Position numbers and translations under genes: made by a program. A stretch of 54,110 nt of DNA from a virus, in IMG/VR virus record IMGVR_UViG_3300012924_000012, positions 1 to 54,110 of that record; one strand, given 5' to 3'. The notes beneath the pieces were generated by a model. The model did not search any database, was not told where the DNA came from, and was given only the letters and a program-made list of their open reading frames with translations. Of this stretch, positions 7,804 to 51,622 are shown in pieces; position 1 is the first letter of the stretch; every line of letters begins with the position of its first letter.

Positions 7804-8175
7804 CTACATGAGGCCCAAGTAACTTTTTACGGTCTTTATTGCTGCTTCAGAGTCAGTCATAACGACAACTAACCAATGCTCTTTTACCAATAAATCGATG
7901 TATGCCAACTGTTCCGGCCTGGGCGTCTCCCCTGGCCGTTTAAATTCAATTGCAAGGCCCGTAAAACCGTTTCTAGGGACCGGCAATATCATGTCGGGTA
8001 CACCCTTCCTAAGACCTTCCGCAATCATCATGGCGGCAGTCTTATAGCTGCGCTTCCCAGCGTTCGGTACAGCAAACATCAGCCGCAAGGTAGGGTTAGC
8101 TTTTTCGGCCAACTTTACCCATTGAAAAAATGCGGCTTGGATATCGTGCTCAAGTGGAACAAGGCGACGTATCAT
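7804..8175 (-). CDS. VRR-NUC domain nuclease
   Basis: This is a 123-residue, single-domain protein. NAGKRS, EGLRKGVPDMILP and AIEFKRPGETPRPEQ match the VRR-NUC (virus-type replication-repair nuclease) core, with the acidic D and E-x-K residues expected for metal-dependent cutting. The start overlaps the previous gene by 26 bases. Such nucleases sit in phage replication/recombination modules and may act on branched DNA. Confidence 0.88.
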   Translation of the reverse strand: MIRRLVPLEHDIQAAFFQWVKLAEKANPTLRLMFAVPNAGKRSYKTAAMMIAEGLRKGVPDMILPVPRNGFTGLAIEFKRPGETPRPEQLAYIDLLVKEHWLVVVMTDSEAAIKTVKSYLGLM

Positions 8176-8464
8176 GCTCTACCGTAGCGGGTTCATCTTT
8201 CATTTTATGCAACAGGATACCTTGAGTGCGTGGAATACCCGCAAGAGTGCGCAATTCGTCCAGATTCCAGCCTGTGATGTCATGGGCATGGATCAGCAAC
8301 GAAGCGGTGATGACCGTTTGCTTGTTACGCATGCGACAGATGGCCGCTGCACCGATACCGAGCGCACGGGATAGCGAGGCATCGCTACGCAAATGGAACT
8401 TGTCCATGATGGCATCAAAGAGTTCGCCGGGTTTGTAATTTTCATTTTTTAGCAATTCAATCAT
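8150..8464 (-). CDS. Helix-turn-helix protein
   Basis: This 104-residue protein has ASLSRALGIGAAAICRMRNKQTVI (about residues 30-53), a clear Cro/XRE-like helix-turn-helix, followed by ITGWNLDELRTLAGI. I chose ATG 8464 because AAGGAGG in the end of the P-like gene gives ideal spacing, while the ATG at 8470 is too close. It may be a regulator, or a ninX-type accessory protein. Confidence 0.7.
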   Translation of the reverse strand: MIELLKNENYKPGELFDAIMDKFHLRSDASLSRALGIGAAAICRMRNKQTVITASLLIHAHDITGWNLDELRTLAGIPRTQGILLHKMKDEPATVEHDTSPCST

Positions 8465-9173
8465 AGTCATCCTCCTTAGAAATTTTCAGCGCATCCCGCG
8501 CAAATTGGACTTGTATTAATGTTAATTTTTTATCACCTTCTTTTTGTTGCTGTAAAATCCTTCTAGCCCATTCTTTCCCATCAATGATTTTGGGCTTTAC
8601 TCCACTGACAAATTTCAATTCTTCAAGCATCTTGGTAGCCTGCTCCCTCGATAATTTGTCTTTCCCCGGCGCTGGTAGTGCGAACATGGGTGCCGGGATT
8701 TCATCCCATGAATTTTTAGCAAGTTCGGCGGCTAATGCGGATTCCCAACGCTGCCGGATTTGCGAATACGTCTGATTTTTGAGTTCAAACGCAGAAACGC
8801 GCACAGATGCCCAAAAAATCGCCGGATGACTCCATGTACCAACCTCCCCTTGTTCGCGGCTCCTAGACCCCTCCAGAGCCTCGTAATAGGCTGTTAGCGG
8901 GTTCACCTCTGGCCTACATCCCTTCAAAAACTCAGGTTGGCTTGGTGGACGGTCAAAATTGTTCATTTTGGCAACGCCTCGTCGCCATTCCAACTCGGTC
9001 AAGCCGTACAACGCTTTTCCCCAATCGCGTTTTAGCTTGTCCGGGTCTACCACCGACCACTTATCGGCAAACTGCTTGCCCCACTTTGACAACATTTGGT
9101 CGAACAGCCATTCAACGAGCTTTTGCGGTAAAGCATTCTTTGGCCATGGTTCAGATGTCGATAACGTCATCAT
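8457..9173 (-). CDS. Replication protein P-like (helicase loader)
   Basis: This 238-residue protein carries the block KRDWGKALYGLTELEWRRGV, then RPPSQPEFLKGCRP, the conserved pattern of lambda-P-type proteins. These load host DnaB helicase at the phage origin. No helicase or primase gene is present in the genome, which fits borrowing the host's. It overlaps the O-like gene's end by 23 bases and has GGGGAGG before its start; ATG 9173 or 9170 is possible. Confidence 0.75.
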   Translation of the reverse strand: MMTLSTSEPWPKNALPQKLVEWLFDQMLSKWGKQFADKWSVVDPDKLKRDWGKALYGLTELEWRRGVAKMNNFDRPPSQPEFLKGCRPEVNPLTAYYEALEGSRSREQGEVGTWSHPAIFWASVRVSAFELKNQTYSQIRQRWESALAAELAKNSWDEIPAPMFALPAPGKDKLSREQATKMLEELKFVSGVKPKIIDGKEWARRILQQQKEGDKKLTLIQVQFARDALKISKEDDYD

Positions 9174-9957
9174 CGCCTCCCCTGCCTGTCAACCTGTTCA
9201 CGAAGTCCTGGCTTCCGTTGCGCTTTGCCGTCCAGTCGTTCATGAAATGCTTGTCCGGCCCTAAAAACGTTGCTGCTTGCTTGATGTATTGCGGTTCAAC
9301 ATTCATTGTTTCGCAATATCTTCGATATCGATCTGCTCCCCTAAGCATGTCTTCAATCGCAACATCAGTATTTAGCCTTGCATCCCAAGCCTTTTGTGCC
9401 TGGGTCTTGTTCGCCCCTGGCCTTTTGGGGTACAGGTTCCAGAATTTTTCAAAATCGGCGTCAGCCGTAATTTTTCGGGTTGGCGCTTTTTCAGTAATCA
9501 GGAATCTGGAATCAGGAATCAGTAAATCAGGAATCAATGAATCAGAGCGTTTTACCACCGGTATTTCACCGTGTTCTAACGGTGTTTTAACCGTTAAAAT
9601 TTTATCACCCTTACGAATCAAGGACTTATCAGAGCATGCCGGTAAAATGCTTGCTTTTTCGGTATGGTGTGGCTTCTGATGTTTCAAAAAATTAATTACT
9701 TGGATCAGTTCAAAATCTTGTTCTTTATACCTTTTTATAAAACCCATTCGTTGTAATTCATATAACATTATATCAACTTCGTTGTCATTCCTATAAGGAA
9801 ATGTCTCAACTTTTATACGAAGTGGCCTATCTTCTAACCGTCCTTCACGGTCTGCAAGGCACCAAAGAGACATAAATAAGATCGTCAAAAGCGGGTCTGC
9901 CTCCCCAAGAATTTCATTCATGAAAAGGCTTGGTTTGATATTCCTAGCGCGTGGCAT
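9151..9957 (-). CDS. Replication initiator (lambda-O-like, winged-helix)
   Basis: This 268-residue protein starts MPRARNIKPSLFMNEILGEADPL. It has the LWCLADREGRLEDRP block seen in a widespread phage replication protein with a winged-helix N-terminal domain (about residues 1-110). A C-terminal DnaT/DnaD-like region follows (WNLYPKRPGANKTQAQKAW). The middle is a low-complexity linker whose DNA carries iterons and an 11-bp-phased motif array, as in lambda, where the origin lies inside O. It is followed directly by the P-like gene. Confidence 0.8.
   Translation of the reverse strand: MPRARNIKPSLFMNEILGEADPLLTILFMSLWCLADREGRLEDRPLRIKVETFPYRNDNEVDIMLYELQRMGFIKRYKEQDFELIQVINFLKHQKPHHTEKASILPACSDKSLIRKGDKILTVKTPLEHGEIPVVKRSDSLIPDLLIPDSRFLITEKAPTRKITADADFEKFWNLYPKRPGANKTQAQKAWDARLNTDVAIEDMLRGADRYRRYCETMNVEPQYIKQAATFLGPDKHFMNDWTAKRNGSQDFVNRLTGRGGDDDVIDI
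9496..9545. repeat. Iterons, candidate replication origin
   Basis: Three exact copies of AATCAGGAATC start at 9496, 9510 and 9525, and a half copy (AATCAG) starts at 9540. The spacing is 14, 15 and 15 bp. They lie inside the O-like gene's linker and encode a repetitive peptide of no obvious structure, so the repeat is probably kept for DNA binding. Confidence 0.8.
9556..9599. repeat. Four 11-bp-phased CACCGT/AACCGTT motifs (array A)
   Basis: Related 7-mers start at 9556 (CACCGGT), 9567 (CACCGTG), 9578 (AACGGTG) and 9589 (AACCGTT), exactly 11 bp apart. The last two form a palindrome, TAACGGT-gtttta-ACCGTTA (9577-9596). Eleven is not a multiple of three, so a protein repeat cannot explain it. 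The array follows the iterons and leads into AT-rich DNA. Confidence 0.75.
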
Positions 9958-17398: not shown

Positions 17399-17665
17399 AC
17401 TCTTCTTGCACCTTGCTACGTAGCACTGCTACAATAGTGCTACGGAAACGCAAAAAAGCCAGTAAACAAGCCATAACTGTGACAACCCTTCATTTTACTT
17501 TACTTCTTTTCCGGGTTGTTGTAACTTATTGAAATTGATGATTTTCCCTATAAAATCAATAGCTTATTGCGGTTTCAAAATTACCTATGATTACCTCGTT
17601 TTACCCACTTTTCACAGAAAAGTGCTACGAGATTGCTACAAGACCGGAAAAAAGGAGCAAGAAAA
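17399..17665. other. Candidate attP region with repeated TGCTAC motifs
   Basis: There is no gene here. TGCTAC occurs at 17414, 17427, 17438, 17623 and 17634. The first group contains a palindrome TAGCACT-gctacaat-AGTGCTA (17421-17442). Two clusters about 200 bp apart directly before the integrase gene look like arm-type integrase sites around a core. ACAACCC (17481-17487) and GGGTTGT (17514-17520) form another inverted repeat between them. The core site itself cannot be identified without the host sequence. Confidence 0.5.
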
Positions 17666-39997: not shown

Positions 39998-40736
39998 ATC
40001 GTCTTCCCGGTCTTGAGGTTCTATACGAAATACCACCTTGCGTTGTCGTGTAATGTCCTGATTTTTCATTTGAATATGAAAGCATTGGTATTGCTCTAAC
40101 GATATATCTCATGCAATCAAGAGCATGATCGTTTTTCTTAACAATTGCGCCGTTTGTATCCCTGCGATAGAAAGGAAGTTCTTTTAAGAGATTGCTTAGA
40201 GTATTGAATATTTTCAATCTTCCAGATGTCATACGTTGATAAACATCATATATCCCAGCCTCCCTAGCATTATCTGCCAATGCTAGTTTTAGACCTTCAT
40301 TTCTGTATAACTGAATCAACTTTTCGCCGTCAATTTGTGATTTACCCTGAGACGCTGGATCAATAAATCCTGTCATTTCTCCGCGAGCTTTGATTGCTGA
40401 AGCATGGACGGCAGGCTCTGCCATTCCTTGATAATGTTCGGAATAGAGATAAAGTACATCAGATTCACGGTCTAATGCAGCCCATACAGCAGCCGTCTTA
40501 TTCCAACCAACGTCTAGGGCATAACCTTTAGGCCAATATTTCGGCAGTTCAAACGGTTCAACTATTAATTCTTGTATGTCAATTGGATATACCTTTCCTG
40601 AACCGATGGAAGGAATACCTTTTGCCCTGGCTTCACGTTCATGAACAGGAATTGATTCCCAAAGTTCCTTTTTAGTCGCTTCGTCAAGGTGTAAAACCTG
40701 ATCCCAATTGCAAGTTATATAGAATTTACCTAACAC
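39984..40736 (-). CDS. Terminase large subunit, C-terminal nuclease part
   Basis: This 250-residue segment carries the RNase-H-like nuclease domain: GYALDVGWNKTAAVW with catalytic D75, FIDPASQGKSQIDGEKL, and KKNDHALDCMRYIVRA with the last acidic residue. It is in the same frame as the ATPase part upstream. Only one TGA (40749-40751) and four codons separate it from that part. Translation could restart at GTG 40736 (weak GAG upstream), or ribosomes may read through. See the finding. Confidence 0.9.
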   Translation of the reverse strand: MLGKFYITCNWDQVLHLDEATKKELWESIPVHEREARAKGIPSIGSGKVYPIDIQELIVEPFELPKYWPKGYALDVGWNKTAAVWAALDRESDVLYLYSEHYQGMAEPAVHASAIKARGEMTGFIDPASQGKSQIDGEKLIQLYRNEGLKLALADNAREAGIYDVYQRMTSGRLKIFNTLSNLLKELPFYRRDTNGAIVKKNDHALDCMRYIVRAIPMLSYSNEKSGHYTTTQGGISYRTSRPGRRYGNE

Positions 40737-40748
40737 AATGGTCTCGCA

Positions 40749-41447
40749 TCATTTTTTAGGTTCACCGCAAGTACCATGTTCCATAAACGACTGTGTCACC
40801 TCTGTCATGCCGAGCATTGGTGTAAAAGTTAGGATCACTAGGCCGTTTGTCGTCATGGTCCTGATGAGACCTTCAGAATAGATCGGCATAGGTGGCTCCT
40901 CATCTAACCATACGCCCTGTTGCTCTGTACCTTGCCAAGCCTCGCGGCCCTGGTCATAGGACTTTAATTGCACAACTGAACGACCACCAGAAAGATGCTT
41001 TACATAAATATTCTCAACAGCATCTGGAACACCACGTTTATTAGAGGTATCTATCAATAAATTACCCGGAATTAGACCTGTACCAAAATCGCCAATTTTC
41101 CCAAGCAATTTAAATTGAATGATGTCCCGAACGGTGGTTGCGGTATCGCCTCCAATCCACCAGGATACCGGCTTGTCAAACCGCCTTCCTATCCACCAAT
41201 CTGGATAACGCCCCGTTAAATGAAGGACCGTTTCGTAACCGCCAATGGATTCTGTCTTGCCAGTCCTGTTACCTGCGAGAACGAGCCGTTCCCGATAGTG
41301 TTTTCCAGCTTCAAAGAAAGCCATATGAACCGGATACCCGGCCCGGTTCTCAGGAGTGACGTAGAAGGTATCGATCTTGTTACGCTGCTTACGCCGCTCT
41401 AGCTCCCGAATAATGGTTTCGGTGGCATAGCGGTCTTCAGGACTCAT
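40749..41447 (-). CDS. terL: Terminase large subunit, N-terminal ATPase part
   Basis: This 232-residue segment has Walker A LAGNRTGKTES (57-67), Walker B GVWLDEE (178-184) and the coupling motif TFTPMLGMT. It is the packaging motor ATPase of a P22/T7-type large terminase. It ends EPKK-TGA, where a full-length protein would continue into the nuclease domain. The A-run before the stop does not give a frameshift solution, because both other frames stop within a few codons. Start ATG 41447 overlaps the previous stop. Confidence 0.9.
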   Translation of the reverse strand: MSPEDRYATETIIRELERRKQRNKIDTFYVTPENRAGYPVHMAFFEAGKHYRERLVLAGNRTGKTESIGGYETVLHLTGRYPDWWIGRRFDKPVSWWIGGDTATTVRDIIQFKLLGKIGDFGTGLIPGNLLIDTSNKRGVPDAVENIYVKHLSGGRSVVQLKSYDQGREAWQGTEQQGVWLDEEPPMPIYSEGLIRTMTTNGLVILTFTPMLGMTEVTQSFMEHGTCGEPKK

Positions 41448-43604: not shown

Positions 43605-43976
43605 TCACGCATTATCTGCATCAAGCGTGTACTTGAAATAAGCGTCATATGCAGCTACTAGAGCAATGTAGTTTTTTTCTGTATGGAAGCGGCCTTTTGA
43701 CTTGATCAAGCATGCTATGGCGATGACAAGATCGGCAGAAAGCAATTCGCCTTCTTCAAACTTATACTTCCATTTTTCTTTCTTTTGTACTTGCCGGGAA
43801 ATCTCAGCTTCAGCAAGTTTTAGGTCTGCTTGAACCTGGAACCATGCTTCCCGCGCGCCGAGGTAAGCTGGGTTATCACGATCATATTTTTGACGATGCG
43901 CAACACTATAAAACCAATCATCAAATAACTTTACTTCTTCACTATGGTCTGTCTCGGTTTGAGATAAAGGGATCAT
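43605..43976 (-). CDS. Helical protein, unknown
   Basis: This 123-residue all-helical protein has a charged middle (LKLAEAEISRQVQKKEKWKYKFEEGELL). Its ATG (43976) overlaps the stop of the ribbon-helix-helix gene. Last gene of its operon; no family recognised. Confidence 0.55.
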   Translation of the reverse strand: MIPLSQTETDHSEEVKLFDDWFYSVAHRQKYDRDNPAYLGAREAWFQVQADLKLAEAEISRQVQKKEKWKYKFEEGELLSADLVIAIACLIKSKGRFHTEKNYIALVAAYDAYFKYTLDADNA

Positions 43977-44125
43977 TTATTTTTACCCTCTTTGATAACA
44001 TAGTCTTGAACAGCCTTTTCAATCAGGCTATTAAACGATAGCCCGTTGATGAGTGCTTTACATGCAAGCCGACAGATCACCGACCAGGGAAGCCGGATTT
44101 GTACATCTTGATAGCGGTCCATCAT
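43973..44125 (-). CDS. Ribbon-helix-helix (Arc-like) protein (50 residues)
   Basis: A minus-strand ATG at 44125 (or 44122) overlaps the Lar-like gene's stop and opens a 50-residue frame. DVQIRLPWSVICRLACKALINGLSFNSLIEKAVQDYV fits a ribbon-helix-helix: a beta strand DVQIRLP, two helices and the GLS-x-N turn. Probably a DNA-binding regulator. The overlap at both ends supports it. Confidence 0.65.
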   Translation of the reverse strand: MMDRYQDVQIRLPWSVICRLACKALINGLSFNSLIEKAVQDYVIKEGKNK

Positions 44126-45467: not shown

Positions 45468-45686
45468 TTAATATTGATCTGCGCAACGTTTCAGAACTGA
45501 ATTTGTGTATGCATCTGGATCAGATTTCAATACCTTAGTGTGTGACAAGACAGAATGATTTTTCTTCATCTTTTTCCGCTTCTCAATCTGAGTATGGCAA
45601 TTTTCACAGAGCGGCTTACCGCTTTGTTTCTTCGGTCCATCGACGGTAGCCGTCGGTCTCAAGCAAGAGGAACACGTAATTTTCAT
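45468..45686 (-). CDS. Small zinc-finger protein beside the 11-bp repeat array
   Basis: This 72-residue protein has C-x2-C (CSSCLRPTA) and C-x2-C (CENCHTQIEKR), 21 residues apart, and is strongly basic. It is likely a DNA- or RNA-binding zinc ribbon. Its ATG (45686) directly adjoins the four 11-bp-phased AACCGT repeats, so it may be controlled by, or may bind, that array. Confidence 0.65.
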   Translation of the reverse strand: MKITCSSCLRPTATVDGPKKQSGKPLCENCHTQIEKRKKMKKNHSVLSHTKVLKSDPDAYTNSVLKRCADQY

Positions 45687-45730
45687 AACCGTTCTTTAAC
45701 CGTTAAATAACCGTGAACTAACCGTTATAT
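45687..45730. repeat. Four 11-bp-phased AACCGTT repeats (array B)
   Basis: AACCGTT or AACCGTG starts at 45687, 45698, 45709 and 45720, exactly 11 bp apart, with AT-rich 4-base spacers. The motif and period are the same as array A at 9556-9599 inside the replication gene. It lies between a membrane-protein gene and the zinc-finger gene and would place protein on one face of the helix. Confidence 0.9.
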
Positions 45731-45886
45731 GAAACATAGTACTATACCAATACATGCGAAGACCAGGAATAGGACGTAGCAATATATTGCTGCATTCCAA
45801 GCCCATGAGTGTGCATTCAAAGGATCAAAAAGAGGTATGACCAGAGCGACAAGGAACAAGATAATAGCGATAGAAAATAATATCAT
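45725..45886 (-). CDS. Small membrane protein (53 residues)
   Basis: A minus-strand ATG at 45886 overlaps the previous stop (ATGA) and opens a 53-residue frame. Two hydrophobic segments (residues about 1-19 and 34-53) are joined by a DPLNAHSWAWN turn. It is probably an inner-membrane hairpin protein. Its last codons overlap the 11-bp repeat array. Confidence 0.6.
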   Translation of the reverse strand: MILFSIAIILFLVALVIPLFDPLNAHSWAWNAAIYCYVLFLVFACIGIVLCFI

Positions 45887-46239: not shown

Positions 46240-46259
46240 TCCCCCTATAATTTGGAGAA

Positions 46260-46288
46260 TGTATATCTACTTGCATGGATGTTGTCAA
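46260..46288 (-). promoter_or_regulatory. Leftward promoter with ATGCAAG in the spacer
   Basis: Minus strand: -35 TTGACA (46283-46288), 17 bp, -10 TATACA (46260-46265), with ATGCAAG (plus-strand CTTGCAT 46270-46276) in the spacer. It drives the 46239-45468 operon. Confidence 0.85.
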
Positions 46289-46500
46289 GAATTTCATAAA
46301 AATTACTCTAGTACGTATCAACGCAACTTTTCCGACTTCATCTCTGGCGTCATCACATGCTGGGCGGACGCTAACCCGCCTAACCGGCTGATCCTCTAGG
46401 CTCCCGTGATCCTATTCTACGGATGCCTAGCGATGCTCCCACCGGCCCCATGGTTGGCTCCACGGGCGTTTCTGCTCTCAACGCCGCAGCCATGGACGAC
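46289..46500 (-). ncRNA. GC-rich promoter-driven segment: possible small RNA or 37-codon gene
   Basis: No gene of normal size fits here. A strong leftward promoter (46508-46536) points into about 180 bp that are clearly richer in GC than their surroundings. Hairpins include GGCGTT (46465-46470) with AACGCC (46480-46485), and CCCGTG (46403-46408) can pair with CACGGG (46461-46466). A 37-codon frame (46380-46493, minus, MAAALRAETPVEPTMG...) begins 8 bases after the expected start of transcription without a ribosome site. I cannot decide between RNA and peptide. Confidence 0.35.
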
Positions 46501-46507
46501 AGATGCA

Positions 46508-46536
46508 TGTATAAATTGTCTTGATTTTTTTGTCAA
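46508..46536 (-). promoter_or_regulatory. Leftward near-consensus promoter
   Basis: Minus strand: -35 TTGACA (46531-46536), 17 bp, -10 TATACA (46508-46513), followed by TGCAT. It reads into a GC-rich stretch without an evident gene. Confidence 0.75.
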
Positions 46537-46539
46537 CTG

Positions 46540-46568
46540 TTTACTTTGCTACTTGCATGGGATACCCT
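46540..46568 (+). promoter_or_regulatory. Possible rightward promoter with CTTGCAT in the spacer
   Basis: TTTACT (46540-46545), 17 bp, TACCCT (46563-46568), with CTTGCAT (46552-46558) in the spacer. The boxes are weak, but placement ahead of the gene at 46589 and the shared motif support it. Confidence 0.4.
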
Positions 46569-46588
46569 GCCGGAAAAGGGAGGGATAC

Positions 46589-46903
46589 ATGGGGAATCAA
46601 AACATTGCTAATATGGAAGATCGAGCCATTAAAGCCGAAGAGGAAGTTTTAAACTTATACCGTAAGCTTGCTGCGGTAAAGCTTGATAGTTCTAACGTAT
46701 GGAGTCGTTATGAATCTATAAATATATCTCGCGGAATAACAGAGTACAAGCTTCTCAGGGCTAATGAAGAACTTCATTTATTGCGTAATCTGCATAATGC
46801 GGTGCTTCAACAAGTCGCTATGTATGAAGGTACTAGCGATGAATTTAACATGATGGAATCAGAAATAGTTCTGGCACTCAAGGAGTTGAAGGATTTCAAA
46901 TGA
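46589..46903 (+). CDS. Coiled-coil protein, unknown
   Basis: This 104-residue protein starts at ATG 46589 behind GGGAGGG. It is almost entirely charged helix (IKAEEEVLNLYRKLAAVKL, TEYKLLRANEELHLLRNLHNAVL). First gene of a rightward accessory operon; its stop overlaps the next start (ATGA). Confidence 0.6.
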   Translation: MGNQNIANMEDRAIKAEEEVLNLYRKLAAVKLDSSNVWSRYESINISRGITEYKLLRANEELHLLRNLHNAVLQQVAMYEGTSDEFNMMESEIVLALKELKDFK

Positions 46904-51244: not shown

Positions 51245-51622
51245 GATCGCCCTTTCCTGGAGCCTCTATTTTGTTGCCATTGAATATCGGGCTATAGGGG
51301 GAGTCCCTACCAATACAATCATGTATTGTACCCAAACCCGCATGTAGACTCACTCTCAAGCAATTCCGTAGCAATACCGTAGCAAAATGCTCGATATCGG
51401 CTTACTTGGCTCTACTCGGCGGAAAGCCTGCTTTTCCGATTCTGGCGGTCTAAACCCGAATATTTTGAGCCTTTTTTGTTATATTGATATCGTATATTGA
51501 TAATATGTATTTACCGGTTTATACTTGGGTTTTGAGGCACGTTTTACCATGGCGTGAAGGCGATTGACGCCCACATTTGCCTACTGCCTGATCCATCATC
51601 CTAATCGAGGAAAGTCCTTCCA
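51245..51622. other. Intergenic control region before the rightward operon
   Basis: There is no gene here. It contains the palindrome TACAAT-catgt-ATTGTA near 51325-51341. Two GTAGCA copies at 51368 and 51379 (TGCTAC on the other strand, 11 bp apart) match the motif repeated before the integrase. A likely rightward promoter TTGTTA-17-GATAAT lies near 51476-51504, within two ATATTGATA direct repeats. Confidence 0.45.

Follow-up and report, generated by a model that had tools for sequence, protein, structure and literature searches.

Iterons that lie outside the minimal origin and control copy number are well known from plasmid replicons, where P1 incA and F incC sit adjacent to the origin. In lambda-type phages, the origin is found in the middle of gene O and is built from iterons and an AT-rich region (PMC7466680). 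In the Bacillus phage SPP1, similar direct repeats mark two origins: oriL, located in gene 38, and oriR, located in a segment of the late region that also contains moron genes (PMC6316719, PMC3485210). The product of gene 38, gp38 (G38P), binds both oriL and oriR with nanomolar affinity and, when bound to oriR, has been proposed to stall replication forks and trigger the switch from theta to sigma replication (PMC6316719, PMC3485210).

We analyzed a repeat array in a viral DNA stretch of 54,110 nucleotides, hereafter the window. A 123-bp terminal repeat at the ends of the record indicates that the window probably represents an entire circular genome, 53,987 bp in length. The array takes up all of the space from the stop codon (TAA) of one small open reading frame (ORF) to the start codon of the next:

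45686–45725, minus strand: four-unit ACGGTTA array with an exact 11-bp period (units 45725–45719, 45714–45708, 45703–45697 and 45692–45686)
45468–45686, minus strand: 72-residue CxxC/CxxC ORF (‘zinc finger’), predicted only, whose ATG abuts the array
45725–45886, minus strand: 53-residue hydrophobic ORF, predicted only, whose stop codon overlaps the array

The 45.7-kb array is a genuine, non-random feature. An earlier, sequence-only reading had described four AACCGT motifs at an exact 11-bp period adjoining the ATG of a small zinc-finger gene. Their positions (starts at 45687, 45698, 45709, and 45720 on the plus strand) and spacing are confirmed, as is the junction with the ATG at 45686, and the conserved core can be refined to 7 bp, TAACCGT on the plus strand or ACGGTTA on the minus strand. 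The units approach an odd palindrome, TAAC-S-GTTA. The three spacers (TCTT, TAAA, and GAAC) all differ, and the combination of four perfect cores with diverged spacers fits selection on the core. Three AACCGT pairs spaced by 11 bp were observed in the window against 0.01 expected by chance; likewise, four identical 6-mers at any fixed period between 8 and 20 occur once in the window, whereas 40 Markov sequences averaged 0.025. The 72-residue ORF has no Pfam match above the cut-off and no significant family match. Rfam and tRNA scans found nothing, and the GC skew along the window tracks transcription, with no turn at 45.7 kb.

Scanning the window with four units of ACGGTTA, a consensus derived solely from the 45.7-kb array, at period 11 yielded a score of 28/28 for the array itself and 23/28 for a site in the O-like gene, with no other independent locus; the best of 100 Markov genomes scored 21, and periods of 9, 10, 12, and 13 returned nothing in the window. 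Using three units of the degenerate motif ACSGTKA and allowing up to three mismatches, the same two loci, 9555–9594 and 45686–45725, were the only matches in the window (0.00 in shuffles). The former lies within a replication module:

9151–9957, minus strand: O-like replication initiator (phrog_16167 replication initiation protein, E 1.7e-51)
9555–9594, minus strand: four-unit array within the O-like gene (ACGGTTAAAAC ACCGTTAGAAC ACGGTGAAATA CCGGTGGTAAA), the presumed iterons of the replication origin
9491–9545, minus strand: AT-rich 15-bp repeats (TCAGTGAATCAGGAA on the plus strand; TRF period 15, 3.8 copies), presumed DNA unwinding element
8457–9173, minus strand: P-like helicase loader gene, next to O and downstream of it (phrog_109, E 1.5e-12)

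The AT-rich repeats directly adjoin the O-gene array, and the two together have the anatomy of a lambda-type origin. The predicted model of O comprises a winged-helix N-domain, a disordered linker over the iterons, and a helical C-domain; the best fold matches of the N-domain model, all of them weak, are TubR (top), BlaI, and MarR-type proteins.

The window phage resembles SPP1 in having one array in the initiator gene (9555–9594) and a distant, intergenic one among small genes (45686–45725), in carrying the same repeat type at both sites, and in the order of the initiator and helicase loader genes. The two phages differ in the identity of the initiator, and binding was measured in SPP1, whereas we infer it here; the comparison with the SPP1 repeats uses their published description. 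SPP1 oriR also contains an AT-rich unwinding element, whereas no clear one is found beside the 45.7-kb array, where the flanking 40-bp AT maximum is 0.65 (86th percentile of the window) and no repeats are seen. Finally, the two sites are separated by 12–13 kb in SPP1, as opposed to 36 kb in the window phage, or 18 kb if the 53,987-bp circle is followed in the opposite direction. Of the known systems, SPP1 offers the best precedent. The iterons of lambda are longer than the 7-bp core repeated here every 11 bp, and the window has a second array outside the gene, unlike a lambda-type origin. P1 incA and F incC are, as proposed for the window array, initiator iterons beyond the minimal origin, but they are next to the origin in plasmids, whereas tens of kb separate the window array from the origin, and the phage encodes an integrase. 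In TubR/tubC and ParR/parC, as would be the case in the window, a small dimeric protein binds phased short repeats, and TubR is also the best, if weak, match of the O N-domain model; however, no TubZ or ParM partner gene was identified, and the motif of the window array is present in the O gene. The sequence-only reading could name no known array type of this kind, a statement that does not hold, since initiator iterons, Pho boxes, CtrA sites, and parC/tubC arrays are all known phased repeats. SPP1, moreover, has a published pair of initiator-bound repeats (PMC6316719). The element is most likely of a known kind, initiator iterons, in an uncommon two-site arrangement.

To place the motif in a wider setting, O homologues were gathered by protein similarity, leaving the motif unused in the selection (n = 114 genes). 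The linker between the N- and C-domains scored at least 18/21 for a three-unit ACSGTKA array at period 11 in 29 of the 114 genes, as opposed to 3 of the 4365 control windows drawn from those loci. Other periods between 8 and 15 were flat in these linkers, and reversed-pattern controls gave 0 or 1 match per search. Across nine whole genomes with such prophages (~30 Mb, the host of the window phage not being among them), all matches with two or fewer mismatches were on the contig carrying O. The iteron type tracks the O N-domain, being like that of the nearest neighbor in 24 of 29 positives and 45 of 48 negatives, while the C-domains differ and are exchanged. Other O clades carry CGATAC, GCACCAT, ACGTCAC, and CGAAAAC motifs in the same linker, also with an 11-bp period. 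The motif is specific to its clade, as ACSGTKA arrays are missing from the O region of annotated phages with O homologues, including those of Pseudomonas, Vibrio, and Acinetobacter. Clade-specific linker motifs at near-constant spacing suggest a general rule for these origins. In the O-like genes L085, L090, L054, L038, and L099, clade-specific motifs of 6–7 bp recur at 11–12-bp spacing (11 in four of the five), and L125, L162, L171–L173, and L193 each have a single O gene with two ACSGTKA arrays in or around it, separated by ~110–210 bp.

Together, the two-locus match in the window, the recurrence in O linkers, and the restriction to O contigs point to ACSGTKA as the origin iteron of one O clade, which would make the 45.7-kb array a second iteron set outside the gene. 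The presence of the same motif and period in the phage's own O-like gene, and in the O-like genes of many phages, also lends support to the proposal in the sequence-only reading that the repeats, phased with the helix, bind a protein in the way that origin repeats do. Since a recurrent peptide, NGxxTVKxPL, is encoded by the linker arrays, constraint on the protein could be part of the reason for the in-gene pattern; arrays outside the gene are mostly noncoding and argue for a role at the DNA level. We regard binding of O to the 45.7-kb array as likely, and, on balance if only just, we favor a second, extragenic iteron set for the phage's own O-like initiator with a role in replication.

A different reader has to be considered. 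Among the DNA-binding candidates of the window, only O is common to array-bearing loci, although this follows by construction, as the loci were found through O. The neighboring zinc-finger protein, put forward earlier as a candidate binder, was abandoned, together with the ribbon-helix-helix (RHH) and helix-turn-helix (HTH) proteins, because homologues occur in 0 of 30 array-bearing loci; none of the zinc-finger protein was found in the fetched parts of the related phage G006 either. An autoregulatory zinc-finger operator, whose gene would be expected to accompany the array, is accordingly not supported. A search of viral contigs for near relatives of the flanking and nearby ORFs returned none for the zinc-finger or RHH proteins. 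The array could instead be the operator of an OmpR/PhoB-type host response regulator, or of the phage RHH or HTH protein, with a merely convergent likeness to O iterons. Direct repeats phased at 11 bp characterize Pho boxes and CtrA sites, an Arc-like RHH protein is encoded nearby (43973–44125), the HTH gene (8150–8470) is common to the window phage and G006, and three phages (G001, G002, and G005) have ACGGTTA arrays at period 11 with no detectable O of the window's family. Against this, the sole other match in the window genome falls in the O-gene linker, with an equal number of units (four) and an equal period (11), the candidate phage regulators are missing from the 30 loci, and no host regulon with such a box is seen in the nine bacterial genomes, where the pattern is absent off the O contig and which do not include the host of the window phage. 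We consider such an operator improbable.

Comparing related phages bears on two further explanations. Second arrays are sporadic among relatives and absent from most O-array records, many of which are fragments; in the few other O clades tested, the motif proper to each clade formed no second array. The Endomicrobiia contig G044 has a perfect second array (0 mismatches) 25.4 kb from its O array, positioned between a TATAAT and the next gene. G031 has two extra arrays, of which one separates small genes, like the window array, and the other lies within an ORF. In G014, the second array is intergenic, 5 kb from O, and adjoins an AT-rich promoter-like stretch, and in G015, it lies within an ORF. 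G006, to which the window phage is most closely related (TerL 82%), has a degraded array of three units, one of them imperfect, in the same interval as the window, between the p153 and DUF3846 homologues, and ending 12 bp upstream of TTGACA-17-TATACA. The sequence-only reading had staked its case on the period persisting in close relatives with conserved flanks; in G006, it is kept at 11 between homologous flanking genes.

The N-domain of the G006 O belongs to a different clade, and its gene seems to carry another iteron, roughly ATCGNGA, so the syntenic ACSGTKA array of G006 either dates from before an exchange of O, as a relic, or is read by another protein. The 45.7-kb array may be a relic or mobile origin fragment, left over from recombination between phages whose O genes differ and without a present role, as the G006 array beside a foreign O and the sporadic distribution of second arrays would allow. 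The window array, however, retains four perfect 7-bp cores between diverged spacers, and it is the O-gene copy that is less perfect than the extragenic one; a relic is therefore quite unlikely.

Alternatively, O may bind the 45.7-kb array for transcription control, repressing or timing the small-gene operon that begins with the zinc-finger ORF and coupling its expression to the O level or to replication. The array fills the space before the ATG, an extended -10-like TGGTATAGT is located upstream, and promoter-like sequences accompany the second arrays of G044, G006, and G014. However, the position of the array relative to the promoter varies between phages, the TGGTATAGT promoter of the window is weak and absent from the promoter scan output, and lambda-type O proteins are not known as transcription regulators. 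This leaves transcription control by O an unlikely role, if slightly less so than the foreign operator discussed above.

The gene order invites one more comparison. The array heads a minus-strand run of small genes leading into the terminase and late genes, with TerL ~4.2 kb downstream in the same run. Small terminases wrap DNA on phased contacts, and the array could, in principle, be a packaging (pac/cos) site contacted by the small terminase once per helical turn. Yet the vicinity yielded no identifiable small subunit of terminase, the other match of the motif is in the O gene rather than near TerL, and O-gene arrays are found in unrelated phages with other packaging genes, making a packaging site very improbable. 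The large terminase of the window reads as two adjacent ORFs (Terminase_6N and 6C; 40736–40749), whereas in the relative L031 it is a single frame of 478 residues; the split reading may be due to a frameshift, a sequencing error, or a split gene.

Returning to the second iteron set, the N-terminal winged helix of O would bind ACGGTTA with one protomer per unit, and the 11-bp phasing would stack the protomers along a single face of the helix, just as in the O-gene origin. Since the 45.7-kb site is 36 or 18 kb from the origin and heads the run into the terminase and late genes, the most likely effect of O at this site would be on replication, in the manner proposed for SPP1 oriR, either as a fork barrier or as a late start that aids the passage from theta to concatemer-making replication. 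Alternatively, the array may be a sink that limits free O. Having no clear unwinding element, the site is likelier to be a barrier or an O-titrating site than a full second origin. In its boldest form, this model holds that O-like initiators of one clade, found in environmental phages of several bacterial phyla, contact a 7-bp iteron at every turn of the helix, and that a second array tens of kb away, free of an unwinding element, is a programmed fork barrier driving the theta-to-concatemer transition, so that an SPP1-like switch would have evolved in a lambda-type replicon. We offer this only as a speculation, and an unlikely one. The lambda-type switch from circle to concatemer is still poorly explained, and a second initiator-binding site of defined sequence would afford a direct test. 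In addition, the fixed 11-bp period and the clade-specific motifs could make origins and initiator specificity readable from sequence across uncultured phages.

Other repeats were noted in the course of this work. In the window, AGCAATACCGT is present in 2.5 copies at 11 bp (51359–51385; TRF), TTACC occurs three times with 10-bp spacing directly upstream of the integrase gene (17581–17610), and a GC-rich, repeat-bearing intergenic stretch with no Rfam match is flanked by divergent genes (46240–46590). The DUF7694 relatives have no ACSGTKA array; three of them (L019, L021, and L022; L021:4542) contain three copies of TAACTTGC at 11 bp, flanked by a late-regulator-like gene and by a small gene that lies upstream of DUF7694. 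GGTTA or ACGGTTA arrays at 11 bp, by a hairpin and a sigma70-like promoter, are found in L002 (4955–4992), L005 (2423–2460), and L001, which have no detectable O of this family. Lastly, many CTAAC/GTTAG arrays with a 10–11-bp period are spread over intergenic regions along the whole of the L004 contig (2660–2850 and 5540–5710).
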